Shown: one piece after another, positions 13,943 through 23,635 of the stretch
How the letters are laid out: every line of letters begins with the position of its first letter
How positions within the stretch are numbered: the first letter of the stretch is position 1
NCBI GenBank assembly: GCA_030536515.1
Contig: JAUNPV010000007.1
Span: 1 to 64,000, forward strand
DNA: 64,000 bases
Source of the DNA: Eubacteriales bacterium
GTDB lineage: Bacteria; Bacillota; Clostridia; Oscillospirales; Oscillospiraceae
Direction: 5' to 3'
Program-made: the position numbers and the translations under genes
The notes under the pieces: generated by a model
Databases searched by the model: none
The model's input: the letters and a program-made list of their open reading frames with translations, nothing else
Told to the model about the DNA's origin: nothing

Positions 13943-15448
13943 ATGGAAATTAGAGAAGATGTAATTTATGCAAGACAGTCAGTAGACCGCAAGGACAGTA
14001 TCAGTATTGAGAGCCAGATTGATTTCTGCAAATACGAATTGAAAGGCGGCAGTTGTAAGATATTCAAAGACAAAGGCTATTCGGGAAAGAACACCGACAG
14101 GCCAGAGTTCCAGAAGCTACTTGTTGAAATCAGGAGAGGCCGGGTAAAGCGTGTTATCGTTTACAAGCTGGACAGAATAAGCCGCTCCATTCTGGACTTC
14201 GCAACAATGATGGAGCTATTTCAGCAGTACGATGTAGAGTTTGTATCGTCCACGGAGAAATTCGACACTTCAACACCGATGGGCCGGGCAATGCTTAATA
14301 TCTGTATCGTATTCGCCCAGCTTGAACGTGAGACAATCCAGAAGCGTGTAACGGATGCCTATTACTCCCGGTGTCTGAAAGACTTTCACATGAGCGGTCA
14401 GGCTCCCTTCGGTTATCAGTTAGAGCCTACTGTGATTGAAGGTATCCATACAAAGAAGATGGTTGCCGACCCGGAAACAGCAGACCTTGTTCGTCTGATG
14501 TTCGCCATGTACTCACAGCCGCAGACCTCTTTCGGAGACATTACCCGGTATTTTGAGGAACAGGATATTAAGGTAAACGGAAAGTCACTCTTTCGAACAT
14601 TCCTTTCCCAGCTTCTAAGAAATCCTGTTTATGCCGAGGCAGATTTGAAACTGTATGAGTTCTTCAAGAGCCAAGGCGCAGCCATTGTAAATGACGCCGC
14701 CGATTTTGACGGTTACAACAGTTGCTACCTCTACCAAGGCCGGGATGTAAAAGAGGACAAGGACAGGTGCTTGAAAGACCAGATACTTGTTATCGCTCCC
14801 CATCGCCCCCTTGTTACTTCGGATGTATGGTTAAGGTGTCGGAAAAAGCTCTTGGCAAACAAGACCTTCCAGAACGGACGGAAAGCAACAAACACATGGC
14901 TTGCCGGAAAAATCAAATGCGGGCGTTGTGGGTATGCCTTAAAGGTAACGCATAGCCCTTCTGGCTGTGATTACCTCCGCTGTACCAAGCGTTCAGATCA
15001 CAAAGGCTGTACCGGGTGCGGCACTCTCCGCAAGGCAGATTTTGAGCAATTCATTTTTGCCGCTATGAGAGAAAAATTCCGGGAGTTCAAACATCTGCGG
15101 GGCGGCGAGGAAACGGTCAATCCGAAGATTACCGCCCATCAGGTAGAGCTGGCACAAGTCGAAGCCGAGATTGAAAAACTGCTTGATACGCTGACCGGGG
15201 CAAACGCCACCTTGCTTGCATACGCCAACAAGAAAATCGAAGAACTTGATACCCGCCGCCAAATGCTTTCAAAAGCGATTGCGGACTTGACCGTTGAAAC
15301 CATGTCCCCGAAGCAGATTGAACTGCTGTCCGGCTATCTGGACGATTGGGATAATATCAGTTTTGACGATAAAAGAACAGCCGCCGATTGTCTGATTTCT
15401 TCTATCAGCGCAACCAGCGACTGCGTAAAGATAGAGTGGAAAATATGA
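13943..15448 (+). CDS. Large serine recombinase
   Basis: 501 residues. N-terminal resolvase domain with the catalytic serine in YARQSVDRKD, DKGYSGKNTDRPEFQKLL and YKLDRISRSILDF; then a recombinase domain (SGQAPFGYQLEP), a zinc ribbon (CGRCGYALK ... CDYLRCTKRSDHKGCTGCG) and a C-terminal coiled coil. This layout is that of TndX/TnpX-like integrases that excise and insert clostridial mobile elements through a circular form. It lies at the right end of the element, as usual, so an attachment site is expected just beyond 15448. Expression appears limited by the leader hairpin. Confidence 0.93.
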   Translation: MEIREDVIYARQSVDRKDSISIESQIDFCKYELKGGSCKIFKDKGYSGKNTDRPEFQKLLVEIRRGRVKRVIVYKLDRISRSILDFATMMELFQQYDVEFVSSTEKFDTSTPMGRAMLNICIVFAQLERETIQKRVTDAYYSRCLKDFHMSGQAPFGYQLEPTVIEGIHTKKMVADPETADLVRLMFAMYSQPQTSFGDITRYFEEQDIKVNGKSLFRTFLSQLLRNPVYAEADLKLYEFFKSQGAAIVNDAADFDGYNSCYLYQGRDVKEDKDRCLKDQILVIAPHRPLVTSDVWLRCRKKLLANKTFQNGRKATNTWLAGKIKCGRCGYALKVTHSPSGCDYLRCTKRSDHKGCTGCGTLRKADFEQFIFAAMREKFREFKHLRGGEETVNPKITAHQVELAQVEAEIEKLLDTLTGANATLLAYANKKIEELDTRRQMLSKAIADLTVETMSPKQIELLSGYLDDWDNISFDDKRTAADCLISSISATSDCVKIEWKI

Positions 15449-15521: not shown

Positions 15522-17135
15522 TTATACTGCAACCCTAACAGGCTCCAATTCAAACACCTCATCAAACTGTACTTTGCGCTCCGGGGACAGGTGGTGGCTG
15601 ACGAGAATCAAGGTCAAGTCGGGATTATTCAGCAGGCTCTTTTCTACGATGTCTGCGTTCTTTTGGTCAAGAGCGCTTGTGCCCTCATCCACCAGCAAGA
15701 TAGAGCGGTTGTGGATCAACGCACGGGCGATGGCTACACGCTGTTTCTGGCCGCCGGAGAGACAGCTGCCCTCCTCACCTACAGGAGTGTCCAAGCCCAA
15801 AGGCATATTTGCAAGGTCGCCGTCTAACGCACTGTCATGGATAGCCTTTGCAATCTGAGCTTCGGTGAAGGTTTCCCCCAAGGTGATGTTTTCACGGATG
15901 GTGGTGTTGAACAGGAACACATCCTGCTCAATGTAACTCATTTGCTGCTGAAGCTGCTCGGTGGTAAAGCTCCTTGCATCCCTGCCATCAAGCTGGATAG
16001 AGCCGGTGTATTCCGGGAGCCAGCCCAGCAGGAGCTTGAGAAGGGTGGATTTGCCGCAACCAGAGGGGCCGGTGAGGGCATATTTTTTGCCCTTTTCAAA
16101 ACAGATTGACATATCACGAAGAATGGGCTTCTCCCCATAATTGAAGCTAACATTCTGAACGGCAATTCCCTTCGACATAGGAGCGGTGGGGATATCAGTC
16201 TTTGCAGTTGATTCATCGGCATGGACTGTAATTTTGTCAAAATAGGGCTTTGCGGCGGCAAAAGACATTCGTGTGCTTGCAATCGTGCTGAGGCCGGAGG
16301 AAATCCCGCTGGTCAAATTTGTAGCGTTCACGAGGGCACCCATAATCATCTTACCTTGGAAAGCCAAGACTACGGTGAGAATCTGCTGTAAAATCTGGAA
16401 AATCAGATTGATAGAAGAAATGACAAATCGGGCTTTGGAATGGATAACGGTCTGCTTGCAGGCGGCTTTCTCCACAATGTCACTGGCTTCACAACCCTGG
16501 CGGATGAATCTTCTTTTATGACCGAAGGAGCAAAGAACATCAAGGCCAGACAGCAAGTCACGAATTTTGGATGTTGCCTCTGCTTCTGCATTGGCACATT
16601 CTACACCGGACTGCTCCATTTTCTTGGTGAAAGATTTGGGAAGGAGCCAGGTAATCACGGCACAGATAAGGCCAACAACAAGCATAGACCAGTGCAAGTA
16701 GCTTAGAGCGATACAGCAACTCACTACATAAACGGCTTCGCCAAAACCATTGAAGAACGGATTCCATGCGTTCTGCTCGATCAACTTGATATTGGTTGTC
16801 AGCCAGGATATGTATTCGCCGCTGTCCTTGCTGTGATACTCTTGGTGGTTTTTGCCCAGCAATGTAGCATACAGATCCTTTCGGACATGGTTATTCATAG
16901 CTCGGACGGCACGCTTGGTACTAACTGTTTCCAGCACGGCAATTCCCTGTACACCGAGCATCAGAAATACGACCACAGGGAGCCAAGACAAAAAGACTTG
17001 GAGATTCAGTTGAATAGCCGCATCAAAAAAGTGCATCATTACCATCTGGAGCACGGTGTATAGAATGAGCTCGGATGCAATCAGCAAGCAGGCTAGAATA
17101 TTTGTTTTCCAGTTGCTTTTGATGTAATAGAACAT
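15522..17135 (-). CDS. ABC exporter (membrane-ATPase fusion) of the peptide locus
   Basis: 537 residues: six hydrophobic helices in the first ~290 residues (LLIASELILYTVLQMVMM onward), then an ATPase with Walker A GPSGCGKST, Q-loop, signature CLSGGQKQRVAIARAL, Walker B ILLVDEGTSALD and H-loop VSHH. The N-terminal C39 peptidase of bacteriocin exporters is absent, so leader removal, if any, needs another protease. It follows the radical SAM gene after 21 bases in the same operon; its likely cargo is the modified peptide. In place of the usual Walker B DEP there is DEG. Confidence 0.9.
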   Translation of the reverse strand: MFYYIKSNWKTNILACLLIASELILYTVLQMVMMHFFDAAIQLNLQVFLSWLPVVVFLMLGVQGIAVLETVSTKRAVRAMNNHVRKDLYATLLGKNHQEYHSKDSGEYISWLTTNIKLIEQNAWNPFFNGFGEAVYVVSCCIALSYLHWSMLVVGLICAVITWLLPKSFTKKMEQSGVECANAEAEATSKIRDLLSGLDVLCSFGHKRRFIRQGCEASDIVEKAACKQTVIHSKARFVISSINLIFQILQQILTVVLAFQGKMIMGALVNATNLTSGISSGLSTIASTRMSFAAAKPYFDKITVHADESTAKTDIPTAPMSKGIAVQNVSFNYGEKPILRDMSICFEKGKKYALTGPSGCGKSTLLKLLLGWLPEYTGSIQLDGRDARSFTTEQLQQQMSYIEQDVFLFNTTIRENITLGETFTEAQIAKAIHDSALDGDLANMPLGLDTPVGEEGSCLSGGQKQRVAIARALIHNRSILLVDEGTSALDQKNADIVEKSLLNNPDLTLILVSHHLSPERKVQFDEVFELEPVRVAV

Positions 17136-17156: not shown

Positions 17157-18401
17157 TTAGAAGTCTGTCCTGTGACAGTACGGTTCCTGATTATCAATAA
17201 CTGCGTACCGTTTGCACTGCATATTGAAGCAACTTAGAACATCTGGACAGGTGTAACACTCCGGACGGAGCTCATTTTGATACCAAAGTTGATTTGCTAC
17301 ACTATCGACCGATACACCGTTTTGAGGGTCGAGGTGGCCAACAAGATTTCTGGGATGGTCCAGAGCAACAGAGCATTTTACAATTTCCCCATTTGCACGG
17401 AATACATAGCCATTTGGATATGCAGCATAACAAATTCTGGCGAACATTTCACTGTTTTCGCATTCCCGCTTCATACCTATTTTATCCAGGTATTCCTCAT
17501 GCAGCTGAGGAAGAGATATTTTCTTTTCGCCCTGTACCAAATCCAAGTTCATAACGGATTCTCCACCCCAGTCATTCACAGTACGCACAGTTAGGGAAAA
17601 GCGAGGATCCTTTCCGAATAAATGATATAGATGGTCATACCAGCTGAAATCCATATCCCCTGCGAGAATGTTATGCCGAATGATCACCTTAAAATCATAC
17701 TCATTTTGAGGTAGTTCTGAAATGGAAATCAAATTATCGAGAATATGCTGCAAAGTCCCAGCACCAGAAACATGGGGTCTCGTATGATCGTGATTCCAGC
17801 CGTCAAGAGTAATATGAAAACACTTAATCCCAGATGCATATAACTGGTCGAAGTGCTTTCGATCAAGCAAATAGCCATTGGTTGTCATGCTTGAGCTGTA
17901 GTAAAATTGGTGAACGGATTGAAGAGACTGGATGAGATATGCAATCTCCAACACATTATCTTGGCATAGCGTTGGTTCACCGCCGAACCAGTTGACTCGC
18001 ACAACTTTGAATTTAGGGGCCTGTTCCTGAATGAAGTCTTTTAATCTGTCGAGCAGTTTACGAGTCATGTGATGCGGGGTATGATCTTCATAGCAGTAAG
18101 GGCATCGAAAATTACATCCTTCAGTCGGCATAATGGTTAACATTAAAACATCATCCATTAGCGCTTTCACTGTTTCCAAAGACTGGTCGATTTCAGCCTT
18201 CGTTAGCAGCAACTCTTGGGCATGAAGGAACTGTGTTAGTGGTGTACTTAGATCGGCGCAGCCACCAGATTTAATGAGTTCGCAGAACTCAGCCTGCAGA
18301 GCGGTGTCCGTGAGCTTAATTACGTTATGTAACAGGTCTGAAGATACGAAAAGCACACCATTCTCTTCTTTGTATCGAATATAGCCTGGAATAATATACA
18401 T
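17157..18401 (-). CDS. Radical SAM/SPASM peptide maturase
   Basis: 414 residues. The start at 18401 (MYIIPGYIRY) has AAGGTG upstream; a longer frame is not needed. The first ~85 residues resemble a peptide-recognition region. The [4Fe-4S]-SAM motif is C96-x3-C100-x2-C103 (EGCNFRCPYCYED). The C-terminal ~110 residues hold a SPASM-type set of cysteines (NGEIVKCSVA, ECYTCPDVLSCFNMQCKRY, YCHRTDF) for auxiliary clusters. Enzymes of this type install thioether or C-C crosslinks on ribosomal peptides. The only peptide next to it is the 31-residue ORF at 18584, with two cysteines. Product class (sactipeptide, ranthipeptide or other) cannot be decided. Confidence 0.9.
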   Translation of the reverse strand: MYIIPGYIRYKEENGVLFVSSDLLHNVIKLTDTALQAEFCELIKSGGCADLSTPLTQFLHAQELLLTKAEIDQSLETVKALMDDVLMLTIMPTEGCNFRCPYCYEDHTPHHMTRKLLDRLKDFIQEQAPKFKVVRVNWFGGEPTLCQDNVLEIAYLIQSLQSVHQFYYSSSMTTNGYLLDRKHFDQLYASGIKCFHITLDGWNHDHTRPHVSGAGTLQHILDNLISISELPQNEYDFKVIIRHNILAGDMDFSWYDHLYHLFGKDPRFSLTVRTVNDWGGESVMNLDLVQGEKKISLPQLHEEYLDKIGMKRECENSEMFARICYAAYPNGYVFRANGEIVKCSVALDHPRNLVGHLDPQNGVSVDSVANQLWYQNELRPECYTCPDVLSCFNMQCKRYAVIDNQEPYCHRTDF

Positions 18402-18488: not shown

Positions 18489-18584
18489 TTACTTTTTGCA
18501 GCCACAGCCAGCAACATTGTTAACGATCGTGTCAAAGAATCTGCTGTTGATGGCCAGAGGCAACTTGGTTGCAACGACTTCCAT
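18489..18584 (-). CDS. RiPP precursor peptide with C-terminal GCGC motif
   Basis: 31 residues, AAAGGAG nine bases before ATG 18584. It has a leader-like part (MEVVATKLPLAINSRFFDTI) and an end VNNVAGCGCKK with two cysteines, glycines and a basic tail. It lies directly upstream of the radical SAM gene on the same strand, with only a hairpin between them. Size and position are those of short RaS-RiPP precursors such as the streptococcal ones. It is not a SCIFF peptide, which has six cysteines. The likely modified residues are the Asn/Val/Ala upstream of Cys27 and Cys29. Confidence 0.75.
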   Translation of the reverse strand: MEVVATKLPLAINSRFFDTIVNNVAGCGCKK

Positions 18585-18681
18585 TTCCGAATTCTCCTTT
18601 CATTTGATTCGCTTGGGATTTATATGTGCATTTCCCTCGCCGTGATATAGAATAGCATGACGAGAAAGAAAAGAACATATC

Positions 18682-18707
18682 ATAACATGTAAGTGAAAAA
18701 TAACATG
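18682..18707. promoter_or_regulatory. Tandem ATAACATG boxes between the peptide operon and its regulator
   Basis: ATAACATG at 18682-18689 and 18700-18707, 18 bases apart start to start, in the divergent spacer. They lie upstream of the precursor operon, whose promoter shows no clear -35. Candidate operator for the HTH-TPR regulator. Confidence 0.5.
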
Positions 18708-18725
18708 GAACGCCTAGTTCATTAC

Positions 18726-18754
18726 TCGACAAATGTCCTCAAATATGTTATAAT
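18726..18754 (+). promoter_or_regulatory. Promoter of the HTH-TPR regulator
   Basis: TCGACA (18726-18731), exactly 17 bases, TATAAT (18749-18754). Strong, constitutive-looking. Confidence 0.8.
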
Positions 18755-18786
18755 TTATTTAATTCAACATACAGGGGATGAGTGGA

Positions 18787-19731
18787 ATGCAAGAAATTTT
18801 CTTAGGCGAAGTTATCAGGCAGAAACGCCTGGAGTTGGGATTAACTCAGGAGCAGGTGTGCGAAGGAATATGTGATCCTATTACAATATCCAGAATTGAG
18901 AACGGAAAACAAACCCCTAACCGTACTCGAATTAATGCAATTTTGGAACGCTTGGATTTGCCAGCTGATCGCTATTGGGCAATGCTTAGTAAGAACGAAC
19001 TTGAGATCGAGGCATTGCAAAAACAAATCACTGAATTTAATGTTCAGTTCGAGCATGCGAGTAAAAATGAACGTCCAGCTATACGGAAAGCCGCATTCGA
19101 GAACCATCAAAAACTCGAAGCAATGATTGAAAAGGGAGATACGGTCAGTCGCCAAATGATTCTCCGCTCCAGGGTTCTTCTTGGAAAAGAGAGTGAATAC
19201 AGCATTCAGGAGCAACGTGCCATGTTGATGGATGCGATTCGTCTGACGGTTCCATCTTTTGACATTGATGAGATTGGGAAAAGTTTGTATACCAGTGAAG
19301 AAATAAAAATCATCAATCTCTTAGCAACGGGTTTCAGTCGTGCAGGAGAACATATGGAAGCCATCAGTATTCTGAGTCAGCTTTGTGGATATATCAGAAA
19401 GCACTTTAAGGATATTCCCGTAAACCGTACCCACTTCAGCATGATTGCATATAATTATGCTAGAGAGCTAGGGATCATAGGACAATATGAGAAAGCAATT
19501 CAAATTGCCGAAGAGGGGCGAGCCGAGTGCCTTGCCTCTGGTTACCATCTTCCCATGCCTCGCTTGCTGGATGTTATGGCGGAGTGTTATTACTACTTAG
19601 GGGATGAAGAGAAAAGCAGAGATTTATTTTACCAATCCTACTATTTGTTTAAGGCATTTGGTGATGGTCATAATCGAGAACTTGTGAAAAAAGATGCACA
19701 GAGATGTATAAACTTGGTGTTTGAAGGTTAG
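18787..19731 (+). CDS. HTH-TPR regulator of the RNPP (Rgg/PlcR-like) kind
   Basis: 314 residues from ATG 18787; AGGGG sits at the right distance, while the ATG at 18778 is too close to it. N-terminal Cro-type HTH: LGEVIRQKRLELGLTQEQVC, ISRIENGKQTPNRTRI. The remaining ~240 residues are helical repeats (FSMIAYNYARELGIIGQYEKAIQIAEEG, LLDVMAECYYYLGDEEKSRDLFYQSYYLF), the TPR layout by which PlcR/Rgg/ComR proteins bind a short imported peptide. It is divergent from the peptide operon and convergent with a secreted-peptide gene. I infer that it activates the operon in response to that peptide; whether the ligand is this one is untested. Confidence 0.88.
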   Translation: MQEIFLGEVIRQKRLELGLTQEQVCEGICDPITISRIENGKQTPNRTRINAILERLDLPADRYWAMLSKNELEIEALQKQITEFNVQFEHASKNERPAIRKAAFENHQKLEAMIEKGDTVSRQMILRSRVLLGKESEYSIQEQRAMLMDAIRLTVPSFDIDEIGKSLYTSEEIKIINLLATGFSRAGEHMEAISILSQLCGYIRKHFKDIPVNRTHFSMIAYNYARELGIIGQYEKAIQIAEEGRAECLASGYHLPMPRLLDVMAECYYYLGDEEKSRDLFYQSYYLFKAFGDGHNRELVKKDAQRCINLVFEG

Positions 19732-19901
19732 AGATCCTCAACCATAGAGTCCACGAATCTTGGATTCCGTTCCTCTGCGACGGTTTCTTCGATATGCGCA
19801 TGAGTGCTATTATCCCTACTGTTACAAGCTGTCTGCGGGAAAGCAGTCACCAGCATGGCACACAGAAGCAGAGATGTAATCAGAGAAGTAAATCTTTTCA
19901 T
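19728..19901 (-). CDS. Secreted small peptide, candidate signal for the HTH-TPR regulator
   Basis: 57 residues from ATG 19901 (AAAGGTG nine bases upstream; GTG 19913 and ATG 19907 are too close to it). MKRFTSLITSLLLCAMLVTAF is a Sec signal peptide; the rest is a short acidic tail ending RNPRFVDSMVEDL. This is the usual build of RNPP pheromone precursors: positively charged start, hydrophobic stretch, mature peptide at the C-terminus. The gene converges on the regulator and overlaps its stop codon by 4 bases. A cysteine near the cleavage site (QTAC) leaves a lipoprotein as an alternative. Confidence 0.65.
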   Translation of the reverse strand: MKRFTSLITSLLLCAMLVTAFPQTACNSRDNSTHAHIEETVAEERNPRFVDSMVEDL

Positions 19902-20043
19902 AGTCATTAACACCTTTCGTTGTTTTTTACAACACTAGAATACCGGAATATCGAGTTAAAATCCATATCGCTAGATGTTTTTTATTTCTTACATGGAACG
20001 ACAAGTTTTCTTCTGTATTATCTAGTGAGTGCCTGGGACTTTC

Positions 20044-20344: not shown

Positions 20345-21004
20345 TTACACAATCTTTAATGATTCCAAATACACAATGGCTTCCTGAACAGTCGTAAAAG
20401 TTTTACTGCTCTGATGCAGCCAATGGTTTCTCGCATCTGTATCTTCCAATGTAGGAATTCCGTCGGGCAGAAGATTAGCCAGCGTCTTCGCTCCATTTCT
20501 GACTGCGGTTTGATACATTCTAGCAATTTTCTCCGTTGTTTCAAAGTCACCTTTTTTGTATCCTGGCATCTTTTGCTTGAGCTGATTGATGATGCGCTCT
20601 TTATCGGCGGTACAATTGATTGCAGGAGCCATCATTTGATAATGTAGCATCAGCCAATACTCAATACAGCCAGTGGTCATCAGGAGGCGAACCCTAATAT
20701 TGGGCTTCTTTCGAAGCTTCCGAAGCTGATCAATAATCTTTGTCCTGGAGTCCCAGTGCTTGTGATCGGATTCTTCTACATCGAAGAAAAACCATATTTC
20801 ATCTGTCGCAGGGACGGCACTCTTATATCGGGGCTCTTTTGTGAATTTATCTCTTGCCTCTTCAAATAATCCAGTCTTAGGGGGATATTTGATTGCTGCT
20901 ACTTCTTCAAATTCTTCTTTCAGAAATTGAGCATAGCACTGCTCCGATTCTCCCTCACAAAAAATGTATATTAGTGGTTTTGATTTCTTCATTTGTCTGG
21001 GCAT
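20345..21004 (-). CDS. rloB: RloB-like TOPRIM protein (AbiLii-like)
   Basis: 219 residues. IYIFCEGESEQCYAQFLKEEF near residue 15 and FFFDVEESDHKHW near 72 are the Glu and DxE motifs of the TOPRIM fold in RloB; EYWLMLHY follows. RloB partners the ATPase RloA in loci found near restriction systems, and corresponds to AbiLii of the lactococcal AbiL abortive-infection pair. A nuclease effector that needs the ATPase is the usual reading. Starts 2 bases after the rloA stop. Confidence 0.8.
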   Translation of the reverse strand: MPRQMKKSKPLIYIFCEGESEQCYAQFLKEEFEEVAAIKYPPKTGLFEEARDKFTKEPRYKSAVPATDEIWFFFDVEESDHKHWDSRTKIIDQLRKLRKKPNIRVRLLMTTGCIEYWLMLHYQMMAPAINCTADKERIINQLKQKMPGYKKGDFETTEKIARMYQTAVRNGAKTLANLLPDGIPTLEDTDARNHWLHQSSKTFTTVQEAIVYLESLKIV

Positions 21005-21005
21005 C

Positions 21006-22316
21006 TTAGATTACCTCCTCGATCTGAAGGTCTGGTGTGGCACCGAATTTGCCCAAAAGATAACCTTTGCGAATGTTTTCATTTGTGGTAGTGGAATAAT
21101 CACTGACACTGTACAGTGTGGAAGTTCCGTCCTTCCGCCGCTTATCCACAAAGTAAATCTGGTCTTTACGAAGCAGTTCCATGTTCAGCAATTCCATATC
21201 ATGTGTCGTGAAAATGAGCTGTGCATGGTTGGGGTTGCTGACGGGACTCTGGAACTTGGATACGATCATTTCTACCATGAGGGGATGCATTTCTTTATCC
21301 AGCTCATCAACACACATGACGCCACCACAGTTCAGAACACGCTCAATTCCAGGGGCAAGAGCCATCAGTTTACGGGTTCCGTCGGATTCATCTGCCAACT
21401 GTAACGGATACAGTTTTTCTGTCCCATCTGCAGAACGCCCCTTGTGGAAAGAGGTTGCATGAACTTCGCCCAGCTTGAGCTTTGTTTCTGACTCGTTTGT
21501 ATTTTCAGAAAGTGCTCTCGCAAACAGAGTTAGTGCCTCGATGATCCCTTCTGGAACACCGTCAGCATCCTTTTCTAGCTCAGAAATATCCCGGCTCTTA
21601 AGCTCGAATTGCATATCTTGAATGCCCAGGTCTGCTGCTTTTGCATAGTCCTTTATGGATTTCAGCATATCCGGATCTTCAGAGTATTCCAACAGCTGAT
21701 GCGGGATATCGGTGTAGTCACGGGAGAAAAACAGATGTTCCCGGAACCAGCGCATAGCAGAAACGCAGGCCTTTTCGTTCATGGTACAGGCTACAGCAAA
21801 ATAAAGCTGGTTCTTCGCAACGGCCTCGCTAATGAGCTGACGCAATTTCTTATCTGTATTCTCTCGAAACTCAAATGTCTGATAGTTCCGATAAAATACC
21901 AGAGCACTTTGCCCCTTCGGAGAGTGGAATAAATATTCTTTTACAATTTCTGTTTTTGTTGCAGAAAAACCGTACACATATTTTACATCATCCAGCAAGT
22001 AGGTAAATTCAAAAGAGGTAGGCTTATTCCGAGAATCATCATCCAGCAGAAATGGTTGCATTGGAATGTTTGCCTTTTCATGCTGTGTCCGCTGTGCATT
22101 TCGGACAAACTGCGCTGCCAGCCAAAACGCCCGGATCACATTGCTTTTACCGCCTCCGTTCTTTCCGTAAATTGCAGCAGCTGGAAGAATACGGAGATTC
22201 TTATGCAAAATCAGGCTGTCCTTAAACGCACCCAGCCCTGTAGCTTCCATAGAAAGAGCGGCTTCGTCTCTAAAAGAGCGGTAGTTTTCAAACTTAAATT
22301 CAATCAGCATATTCAT
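21006..22316 (-). CDS. rloA: RloA-like AAA ATPase (AbiLi-like)
   Basis: 436 residues. SMC/ABC-like ATPase: FKFENYRSFRDEAALSM at the start, Walker A GKNGGGKS at 51-58, signature-like DESDGTRKL, Walker B GGVMCVDELDKEMHP and H-motif IFTTHDMELL. Together with RloB it makes a two-gene phage-defence unit (AbiL type). The ATPase probably senses infection and licenses the TOPRIM nuclease. Low GC like the rest of the island. Confidence 0.85.
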   Translation of the reverse strand: MNMLIEFKFENYRSFRDEAALSMEATGLGAFKDSLILHKNLRILPAAAIYGKNGGGKSNVIRAFWLAAQFVRNAQRTQHEKANIPMQPFLLDDDSRNKPTSFEFTYLLDDVKYVYGFSATKTEIVKEYLFHSPKGQSALVFYRNYQTFEFRENTDKKLRQLISEAVAKNQLYFAVACTMNEKACVSAMRWFREHLFFSRDYTDIPHQLLEYSEDPDMLKSIKDYAKAADLGIQDMQFELKSRDISELEKDADGVPEGIIEALTLFARALSENTNESETKLKLGEVHATSFHKGRSADGTEKLYPLQLADESDGTRKLMALAPGIERVLNCGGVMCVDELDKEMHPLMVEMIVSKFQSPVSNPNHAQLIFTTHDMELLNMELLRKDQIYFVDKRRKDGTSTLYSVSDYSTTTNENIRKGYLLGKFGATPDLQIEEVI

Positions 22317-22705: not shown

Positions 22706-23635
22706 ATGATGGATGACAAAGAACTGAGTGGACAGGTGAGCAAATACCTAGAGTACTGCAAAATTCAGAAGGGGCTCAGTCCCAAAACTGTGAAGGCGTA
22801 TGGAATAGATCTGAGGCAATTCACTGAATTTTTTCTAATGCATCAACACCTGCTAGACAGAGAGTGCATACAGAATTTCATCGGTGAGCTGCATCGAAAG
22901 TACAAGGTCAAAAGTGTCAAACGCAAAATCGCCAGTCTTAAGGCATTCTTAAATTATTTAGAATTTGAGGAGATCATCAATGTTAATCCGTTTTCCAAAC
23001 TTCGGATAAAACTACACGAACCGTTCCTGCTTCCAAGGACCATCCCTCTCTCGTCAGTTGATACACTCCTAAAATGTGTGTATGCCGCCAAGGCCACGCT
23101 CACTGCTGGTTCTTATCGATACAATACAGTGCTACGAGATATAGCTGTGCTGGAGTTGCTGTTTGCCACCGGCATGCGAGTATCGGAGCTATGCTCATTG
23201 GGAGCAGATGACATCGGTGTTACGGACGGGACGATCAAAATCTTTGGCAAGGGCGCCAAAGAGCGAATCATCCAGGTGGGTCATGTGAATGTCCTGACGG
23301 CAGTATCCGAGTATAGTTCGGCCTTTGCCGATAAAATTGAAGCCACTGGACATTTCTTCATAAACCGTCTTGGCAGACAACTATCAGACCAGTCCGTTAG
23401 AAACATGATCACCCGGTACACAGATCAAGCCCATATAGAGCAGCACATCACACCACATATGTTCAGACACTCATTTGCTACACTGCTGCTTGAGGAGGAT
23501 GTAGATATCCGGTATATCCAGCAGCTCCTTGGCCACAGTTCCATTACAACAACCCAGATATATACTCATGTTTCATCCAAAAAGCAACGGGAGATTCTCG
23601 CTGCAAAGCATCCCCGTAATAAAATTTGCGTCTAA
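22706..23635 (+). CDS. Xer-like tyrosine recombinase (island integrase)
   Basis: 309 residues. N-terminal SAM-like core-binding domain (YLEYCKIQKGLSPKTVKAYGIDLRQF), then the catalytic domain with Arg in ATGMRVSEL, Lys in FGKGAKERI, HxxR in PHMFRHSFATLL, His in LLGHSS and the nucleophile Tyr in TTQIYTHV. All active-site residues are present. It resembles XerC/XerD but sits 119 bases from the 3' end of tRNA-Tyr, at the island boundary, so it is better read as an integrase. The ribosome binding site is masked by a hairpin. Confidence 0.92.
   Translation: MMDDKELSGQVSKYLEYCKIQKGLSPKTVKAYGIDLRQFTEFFLMHQHLLDRECIQNFIGELHRKYKVKSVKRKIASLKAFLNYLEFEEIINVNPFSKLRIKLHEPFLLPRTIPLSSVDTLLKCVYAAKATLTAGSYRYNTVLRDIAVLELLFATGMRVSELCSLGADDIGVTDGTIKIFGKGAKERIIQVGHVNVLTAVSEYSSAFADKIEATGHFFINRLGRQLSDQSVRNMITRYTDQAHIEQHITPHMFRHSFATLLLEEDVDIRYIQQLLGHSSITTTQIYTHVSSKKQREILAAKHPRNKICV

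Follow-up and report, generated by a model that had tools for sequence, protein, structure and literature searches.

Most of what is known of intracellular peptide quorum sensing comes from bacilli, streptococci, enterococci and a few clostridia. In the PlcR/PapR system of the Bacillus cereus group, PapR is produced as a Sec-type precursor with a C-terminal signal, papR lies downstream of plcR in the same direction, and the PlcR box is shorter than about 38 bp. Here, a 64,000-nucleotide stretch (the window; positions 1 to 64,000 of contig JAUNPV010000007.1, assembly GCA_030536515.1) from a Eubacteriales bacterium of the Oscillospiraceae was analyzed. It contains a PlcR-like regulator, P0001, with a helix-turn-helix (HTH) domain and tetratricopeptide repeats (TPRs), which lies between a divergent operon for a ribosomally synthesized and post-translationally modified peptide (RiPP) and a convergent small gene. 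Probably, these genes form an autoinducing pheromone circuit of the RRNPP kind that activates a RiPP matured by a radical S-adenosylmethionine (SAM) enzyme.

Parts of this arrangement have counterparts in described systems (statements on published work reflect the parts of the cited sources drawn on here). The RRNPP families listed in a survey of complete genomes and chromosomes come from groups of bacilli, streptococci, enterococci and clostridia (PMC10075063), and RRNPP systems beside RiPP genes are known from streptococci and from that survey (PMC10075063, PMC13361665, PMC12445099). Group III shp genes, which encode short hydrophobic peptides (SHPs), are convergent with rgg and overlap its end (PMC13361665), and SHPs are exported by PptAB (PMC10075063). 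In a PapR/TprA-like system of Streptococcus thermophilus, a C-terminal peptide of the precursor has been detected by mass spectrometry (PMC12445099).

The small gene of the window (19728..19901, minus strand) starts at ATG 19901, encodes 57 amino acids ending in RFVDSMVEDL and stops at 19728-19730. The regulator gene ends at 19731, and the two genes therefore overlap tail to tail by four bases (19728..19731). An alternative start at ATG 19907 would give 59 amino acids and is better spaced behind an AAAGG motif. The product is read as a candidate pheromone precursor from its translation, its co-conserved position and the operator-like site upstream of it, and its length falls within the 10-100 amino acids that mark the adjacent propeptide gene of RRNPP systems. 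The preliminary description of this DNA had reported the overlap together with a Sec signal and an acidic tail; the overlap and the tail are in the sequence as claimed, and of the signal what stands is that the N-terminal, signal-peptide-like part (MKRFTSLITSLLLCAMLVTA; 19842..19901, minus strand), with its predicted cleavage site, satisfies a hydropathy rule (2.67). By analogy with the C-terminal pheromones of PlcR-type systems, RFVDSMVEDL (19731..19760, minus strand) is the candidate source of the mature pheromone. Tails are net acidic in all 30 small proteins compared, the window's included. That the product might be a lipoprotein retained at the membrane, which the earlier description had named as grounds for abandoning its proposal, was rejected for the window, whose small protein contains no lipobox; a lipobox-like match occurs in 2 of the 30 small proteins.

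A single-protein search of genome contigs with P0001 confirmed no relative, and an alignment of five regulators used as the query led to 79 loci. A regulator was counted as strong at 150 tblastn bits or more, which gave 48, the window's being one of them, after removal of L127 (the same gene as L047), L136 (which overlaps L138), L097 and L082 (both truncated) and repeats that agree throughout their last 300 bases. A small gene was called if it had an ATG start and 35-100 amino acids, a basic and then hydrophobic N-terminus with a polar tail, and a stop on the opposite strand no more than 60 bp from the regulator stop. By this rule, a convergent signal-like gene accompanies 30 of the 48 strong regulators (29 of 47 without the window), with the exact 4-bp overlap at 22 of 48 (21 of 47). 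The controls were 204 other open reading frames (ORFs) of at least 200 amino acids from the same loci, some of which may be spurious antisense frames; seven of these had a convergent ORF. The co-conservation of small ORF and regulator, which the preliminary description had left to be checked, is thus borne out. Among 34 weaker regulators, the rule found 15 convergent ORFs and three exact overlaps, and in L085 and L102 the exact overlap is present, yet the ORF failed the tail filter. Flank lengths vary, from about 0.2 to 7 kb per side for most loci, and counts of neighbors are therefore lower bounds.

A lone 4-bp overlap is cheap, because an antisense stop in this register is available at the end of every gene that finishes in NNY-TAR. 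The same cannot be said of the recurrent association. That the small ORF is a chance antisense frame arising from this easy register, which needs just a pyrimidine before a TAA or TAG stop, is hardly credible. The same rule does find a convergent signal-like ORF at the seven controls mentioned, but the exact overlap occurs at none of the 204, letters resembling a Shine-Dalgarno sequence precede 26 of the 30 small genes, and the window's small gene has a site and a -10 element of its own. In addition, 11 close pairs of small genes from relatives, chosen by hand, were compared, and the nonsynonymous rate was below the synonymous rate (dN < dS) in all ten pairs for which dS could be estimated. 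From their sequences, the small genes look translated.

The divergent operon comprises a 31-residue RiPP precursor (MEVVATKLPLAINSRFFDTIVNNVAGCGCKK; 18489..18584), a 414-residue radical SAM peptide maturase (17157..18401; Radical_SAM, E 9e-20) and a 537-residue ATP-binding cassette (ABC) exporter (15522..17135; ABC_membrane and ABC_tran, with kin in related loci), all on the minus strand, and thus has the three components of a radical-SAM RiPP (RaS-RiPP) operon. The best NCBIfam model for the maturase was TIGR04463 (E 4e-36, under its cut-off), no cut-off was reached among the 25 models listed, and the precursor had no NCBIfam match among the models listed. The precursor was identified by its similarity to short genes upstream of radical SAM genes in related loci, which share a MEV[VI]xxK-type start and an Asn/Cys-rich end. 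In 13 of 41 loci, a homologue of the window's radical SAM gene is found in the vicinity of the regulator, either on the divergent side (the window, L046, L048 as a fragment, L050, L051, L055, L057, L059, L065, L072 and L079) or on the other side (L081 and L090). A second radical SAM type adds L067, making 14 of 41, and L051 has both types. An ABC exporter without a radical SAM gene is found in L053, L060, L061, L063 and L069, with weaker ABC matches in L047 and L070. In the set of 61 genomes searched as the genus, the radical SAM gene was matched at E ≤ 1e-20 in two, one of them the window's own. In L050, the gap that separates the radical SAM gene from the regulator (3884 to about 3940) leaves no room for a precursor; a deletion is a possible cause.

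The small gene is also present beside eight regulators at which tblastn found no such radical SAM gene, each with at least 3 kb of sequence on its divergent side (L049, L058, L062, L064, L074, L075, L076 and L077; all except L064 have at least 2.9 kb on the other side as well). It therefore follows the regulator, not the RiPP. This argues against the small protein serving the RiPP as an immunity or accessory protein, or being a second product that is secreted, with the regulator sensing something else. Such a role, which we consider quite improbable, would suit the site common to the small gene and the RiPP precursor, and would suit L060, L081 and L090, where the small gene comes immediately after the ABC gene in a RiPP or ABC operon (in L060 the order is site, precursor, ABC gene, small gene). 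It sits poorly with the divergence of the mature part between paralogues while the signal part stays. In a Lachnospiraceae genome with two copies (L071 and L072), identity is 96% over the first 27 residues and 33% over the remaining aligned residues; in the Faecalibacterium hattorii paralogues L050 and L051, the corresponding values are 93% and 62%. A conserved leader with a diverged tail would be expected of a generic leader joined to a mature tail that determines specificity.

In two genomes of the window's genus, loci L002 (2391-2516) and L003 (2389-2514) contain a 41-residue convergent signal-like gene with the tails PCCEYEDAWLLQ and PCCDYEEEWLSY, respectively. These small genes adjoin a more distant regulator of this type, and a gene for a secreted protein lies beyond.

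The ORF of the regulator spans 18778-19731 (plus strand) and encodes 317 amino acids from the first ATG at 18778 or 314 from ATG 18787 (18787..19731). The latter start (MQEIF...), adopted in the preliminary description, fits the relatives better, and the divergent orientation of this HTH-TPR regulator relative to the RiPP peptide operon was likewise described correctly. P0001 has an N-terminal HTH_3 match (Pfam, E 9e-11) and, at 317 amino acids with TPRs, lies inside the 250-500 amino acid range of RRNPP receptors. It was aligned in a set of 37 regulators, A2 (L065 was dropped for a stop in its coordinates, and L083, L084, L085 and L089 were omitted by choice), to the other 36 of which it is 29-53% identical. 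Pfam matches in the set comprised HTH in 37 of 37, TPR_12 in 36 and RNPP_C (PF18768) in 35, with a best E of 1.5e-11. PlcR was matched over its full length by the family profile (E 2.6e-12) and by P0001 alone (E 3.7e-6), and was the sole full-length match among solved structures at E ≤ 1. Two asparagines of the TPR part are conserved (N180 in 32 and N226 in 31 of the 37) and align with PlcR residues 159 and 201, which we take to be the peptide-binding asparagines of that protein. Their conservation suggests that they bind a peptide in the TPR groove of this regulator also. A peptide-binding asparagine is strictly conserved in RNPP proteins (PMC3601957), and ComR likewise anchors its peptide through a conserved asparagine (PMC5131891).

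Membership of the Rgg family was tried and rejected: TIGR01716 did not match P0001 and was absent from the 25 families, of 49, that were listed for the 37 relatives. Of the type proposed earlier, the RNPP class is thus retained and the Rgg-like affiliation replaced by a PlcR/RNPP_C-like one. On these profile and structure matches, the regulator's family is RNPP, closest to PlcR among solved structures, and not Rgg.

An operator-like palindrome lies before both the RiPP precursor (GGCGTTCCATGTTATTTTTCACTTACATGTTATGATATG; 18676..18714, minus strand) and the small gene (GTCGTTCCATGTAAGAAATAAAAAACATCTAGCGATATG; 19964..20002, minus strand). It was scored with a matrix made from seven sites picked by eye in the regions upstream of relatives' RiPP precursors, with the window held out. 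The two sites scored 25.3 and 20.7, respectively, and the remainder of the 64 kb at most 1.4. In L057, the palindrome is perfect across two 14-base arms. The regions upstream of 29 of the 30 small genes were tested (L078, with fewer than 100 bases upstream, was omitted), and 14 of them scored above 10 and beat all 200 shuffles; a fifteenth, L064, reached p just below 0.01 with a score of only -1.5. Thirteen of these 15 sites are at -95 to -109 from the start used. Across the 41 loci (484,519 bases), 31 sites, spread over 20 loci, scored above 10. The seven training sites are included in this number, and since they were picked for the matrix their own scores are no evidence, whereas the other 24 are. 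The reversed sequence of the 41 loci gave no site above 10. Assigned by eye to downstream genes from their coordinates, 15 of the 31 sites precede the small gene, 15 the other flanking operon (in L058 with no clear gene found behind) and one an S41 peptidase gene. The link from circuit to RiPP, which the preliminary description had drawn, gains independent support from the presence of the site before both precursor and small gene.

Both promoters of the window have the -10 element TATTCT 21 nt downstream of the site (18649..18654 for the precursor and 19937..19942 for the small gene, both on the minus strand). The -10 element is exactly at +21 in 10 of the 11 small-gene promoters examined (window included; only 11 of the 15 with a site entered this analysis) and in the window's precursor promoter, and 8 of ten precursor promoters, the window's among them, have it at +21 or +26. 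The -10 element was taken as the best match in a 28-nt range, and the recurring +21 is therefore the informative part. At the -35 position, all 23 promoters examined match TTGACA at 0-3 of six bases. By contrast with the poor -35 at both site-bearing promoters, the regulator's own promoter (18726..18754, plus strand; TCGACA-17-TATAAT in a pattern scan) resembles the sigma-70 consensus at 11 of 12 bases; promoter-like matches in the region number 9, against a chance mean of 8.5. Judged from the sequences, the site, the fixed -10 and the poor -35 together are the layout of an activator-dependent promoter pair.

The main rival is relief of repression. The regulator would then repress both promoters, that of the RiPP and that of the small gene, until the peptide is imported and relieves them, as in the TprA/PhrA system of pneumococcus: TprA is a PlcR homologue with a phr gene opposite in direction, repression is relieved by its own peptide (PMC7595303), and lantibiotic genes adjoin it (PMC5436883). 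The promoters of the present loci make such a reversal of sign unlikely, as the site stops where a -35 element would start, the -10 is held at 21 nt in most promoters examined, and a good -35 is lacking (0-3 of 6), which together make up the arrangement of an activator site. Among relatives of solved structure, the closest one, PlcR, is moreover an activator (PMC2464732).

The site also precedes genes for S41 peptidase-like lipoproteins in L072 (10025-10063) and L054 (5899-5937); Pfam S41 was seen for the L054 gene, and the L072 gene clusters with it. The S41 peptidase-like protein is a candidate pheromone-trimming protease. The genes behind the sites in L052 (5706-5744) and L153 (1501-1537) encode proteins that look secreted without being RiPP precursors of this type, and the regulon may therefore differ between species.

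Several observations weigh against the proposed circuit. In P0001 itself, the TPR_12 match (E 3e-5) is under the Pfam gathering cut-off and RNPP_C gave no match at E ≤ 1. Within the genus, the regulator's best match apart from itself is 33% identical, so that conservation of the window's own small ORF is not directly measurable. The rule finds no small gene at 18 of the 48 strong regulators (five are the first of a tandem pair, in L047 a small gene lies 157 bp downstream, and at 12 none is visible), and the loci are not independent, several being close relatives or paralogues. As to the site, 14 of the 29 small genes tested lack one at p < 0.01, 21 of the 41 loci lack one above 10, and 67 other loci (631,118 bases) contain three matches above 10. 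Specificity within the window's own genome rests on an IUPAC pattern rather than on the matrix; with up to two mismatches it found only the two window sites, both exact, and the pattern was written after the sites were seen, with three matches in the reversed-pattern control. When seven other genomes with related regulators were scanned with up to one mismatch, the pattern lay beside a strong regulator in G683 only; G094 and G520 had no match, and the matches in G498, G650, G237 and G372 fell on contigs without listed regulators. The scan of these seven genomes is mostly uninformative.

The loci without a site, and the six of seven genomes without a pattern match beside a strong regulator, would also suit a palindrome that belongs to another, unlinked regulator, in which case its place at both promoters would say nothing of the HTH-TPR protein, whose binding there is a prediction. 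This is very unlikely given where the sites are found: apart from one at a nearby peptidase gene, all 31 in the 41 loci are either at the small gene or at the other flanking operon. Among 300 genomes of the family, moreover, the exact pattern occurs in just 5, and the reversed control in none: the 5 are the window's own, G683 (where a strong regulator is about 500 bases away), G372 (which has divergent regulators only), and G576 and G678, where the matches have no palindromic look.

The gene pairing, the shared site with its fixed -10 spacing in the window and the relationship to RNPP proteins come directly from computation. In the autoinducing circuit proposed here, the regulator would be made from its own consensus-like promoter. 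The precursor of about 57 residues would leave the cell through Sec and be cut by signal peptidase I, and trimming outside the cell would free the acidic C-terminal peptide; everything from export onwards is what we infer. An oligopeptide permease would re-import the peptide, Opp-type genes being present in the window's own genome, and the peptide would sit in the TPR groove of the regulator through the conserved asparagines. The loaded regulator would then occupy the palindrome of about 38 bp before the small gene and the precursor, substitute for the missing -35 element and activate both promoters. The pheromone would thus amplify its own production, and the RiPP operon of precursor, maturase and exporter would be switched on at high cell density.

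A broader and rather doubtful extension is that these systems constitute a pheromone 'language' of gut Oscillospirales and Lachnospirales, with paralogues as dialects, in which the stop overlap is functional and limits induction by antisense transcription. The induced transcript of the small gene would run antisense across the whole regulator gene and towards the RiPP operon on the same strand, and no terminator-like hairpin was found on the minus strand from 19728 to 18590. Such read-through would make induction cut receptor synthesis and thereby yield a self-limiting pulse.

With the protein alone as the query, strong full-length relatives of the regulator are sparse. A protein search (60 relatives) gave a best match outside the window's own genome of 33% identity, and P0001 was matched at E ≤ 1e-12 in 5 of 391 genomes of the class; at E ≤ 1e-15, a regulator match was found in 10 of 300 genomes of the window's own family, the own genome being included in each count. 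The 79 loci come from Oscillospiraceae, Faecalibacterium, Pseudoflavonifractor, Butyrivibrio and other Lachnospiraceae, among others, and the pairing of regulator and small gene recurs in Oscillospiraceae, Faecalibacterium and Lachnospiraceae. Carriers of the system include F. hattorii and F. prausnitzii (L050, L051 and L079), F. hattorii having it twice with diverged signal tails. Plasmid records contained no match to P0001 at E ≤ 1e-5 and viral contigs a single match, to the HTH alone (47 residues); these collections therefore give no indication that the family is borne by phages or plasmids.

Tandem regulator pairs were seen in L062, L065, L071, L072 and L138, where the small gene is convergent to the second copy only, and in L046 and L068, where no small gene was seen. 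By analogy with Rgg2/Rgg3, they are possibly pairs of activator and antagonist. In L081 (5983-7905) and L090 (5032-6933), two regulator units are apparently fused, in ORFs of 640 and 633 amino acids.

Just upstream of the small gene in the window is a two-gene pair (20345-22316, minus strand) that matches the abortive-infection system AbiL (AbiLi, E 6e-89; AbiLii, E 5e-16), with the Pfam domains AAA_21 and RloB. A large serine recombinase (13943-15448, plus strand) and a tyrosine recombinase (22706-23635, plus strand) flank the stretch of RiPP, regulator and AbiL-like genes, which suggests that it is an accessory, possibly mobile island.

If correct, the proposal provides a concrete circuit in gut anaerobes, F. 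prausnitzii and F. hattorii among them, with a predicted inducer, a predicted operator and a predicted radical-SAM RiPP product. RiPP clusters that stay silent in culture might be inducible with a short synthetic peptide, and the divergence of the tails raises the question of cross-talk between gut species.

Among known systems, PlcR/PapR shares with the window full-length sequence kinship of the regulator, the HTH and TPR architecture and the aligned conserved asparagine. PlcR is an activator that binds a box (PMC2464732), as the regulator of the window is predicted to be. The window differs in that its small gene is convergent, with overlapping stops, and not in the papR-like same direction; in that its palindrome is about 38 bp; and in that the neighboring target is a RiPP. 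The TprA/PhrA and PapR/TprA-like systems of streptococci have a PlcR homologue, an opposite small signal gene and adjacent RiPP genes in common with it (PMC5436883, PMC7595303), whereas TprA/PhrA acts on a lanthipeptide, works through relief of repression and belongs to a streptococcus. Rgg/SHP systems and the streptococcal RaS-RiPPs (streptide, tryglysin and others) likewise place an RNPP-type regulator beside a radical-SAM RiPP operon; the regulator of the window is, however, not an Rgg, and its signal, at 57 amino acids with a predicted Sec-type leader and an acidic tail, is not a short hydrophobic peptide. NxxC-type ranthipeptides also have a short precursor with Asn and Cys near its end and a radical SAM maturase (PMC8326336), but the core in the window lacks the NxxC spacing.

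With respect to the RRNPP_detector signature, the window agrees in size, TPRs, adjacency and, by hydropathy, the secretion tag (PMC10075063). In the main text of that survey, 'ruminococc' and 'lachnospir' do not occur, and its list of systems linked to biosynthetic gene clusters, in the part drawn on here, names no Oscillospiraceae, Ruminococcaceae or Lachnospiraceae (PMC10075063). Judged by the main-text description, the subfamily of the window may be one of the survey's 21 new subfamilies. In the open-licence literature, no paper on Faecalibacterium with RRNPP was found, the part seen of an open-licence paper naming both Faecalibacterium and PlcR contains nothing of this kind, and the term RRNPP was absent among the best matches to RRNPP together with gut family names. 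As far as the open-licence literature shows, what is new here is a subfamily with a recurrent stop overlap, a site at both promoters and a tie to radical-SAM RiPPs in gut anaerobes.

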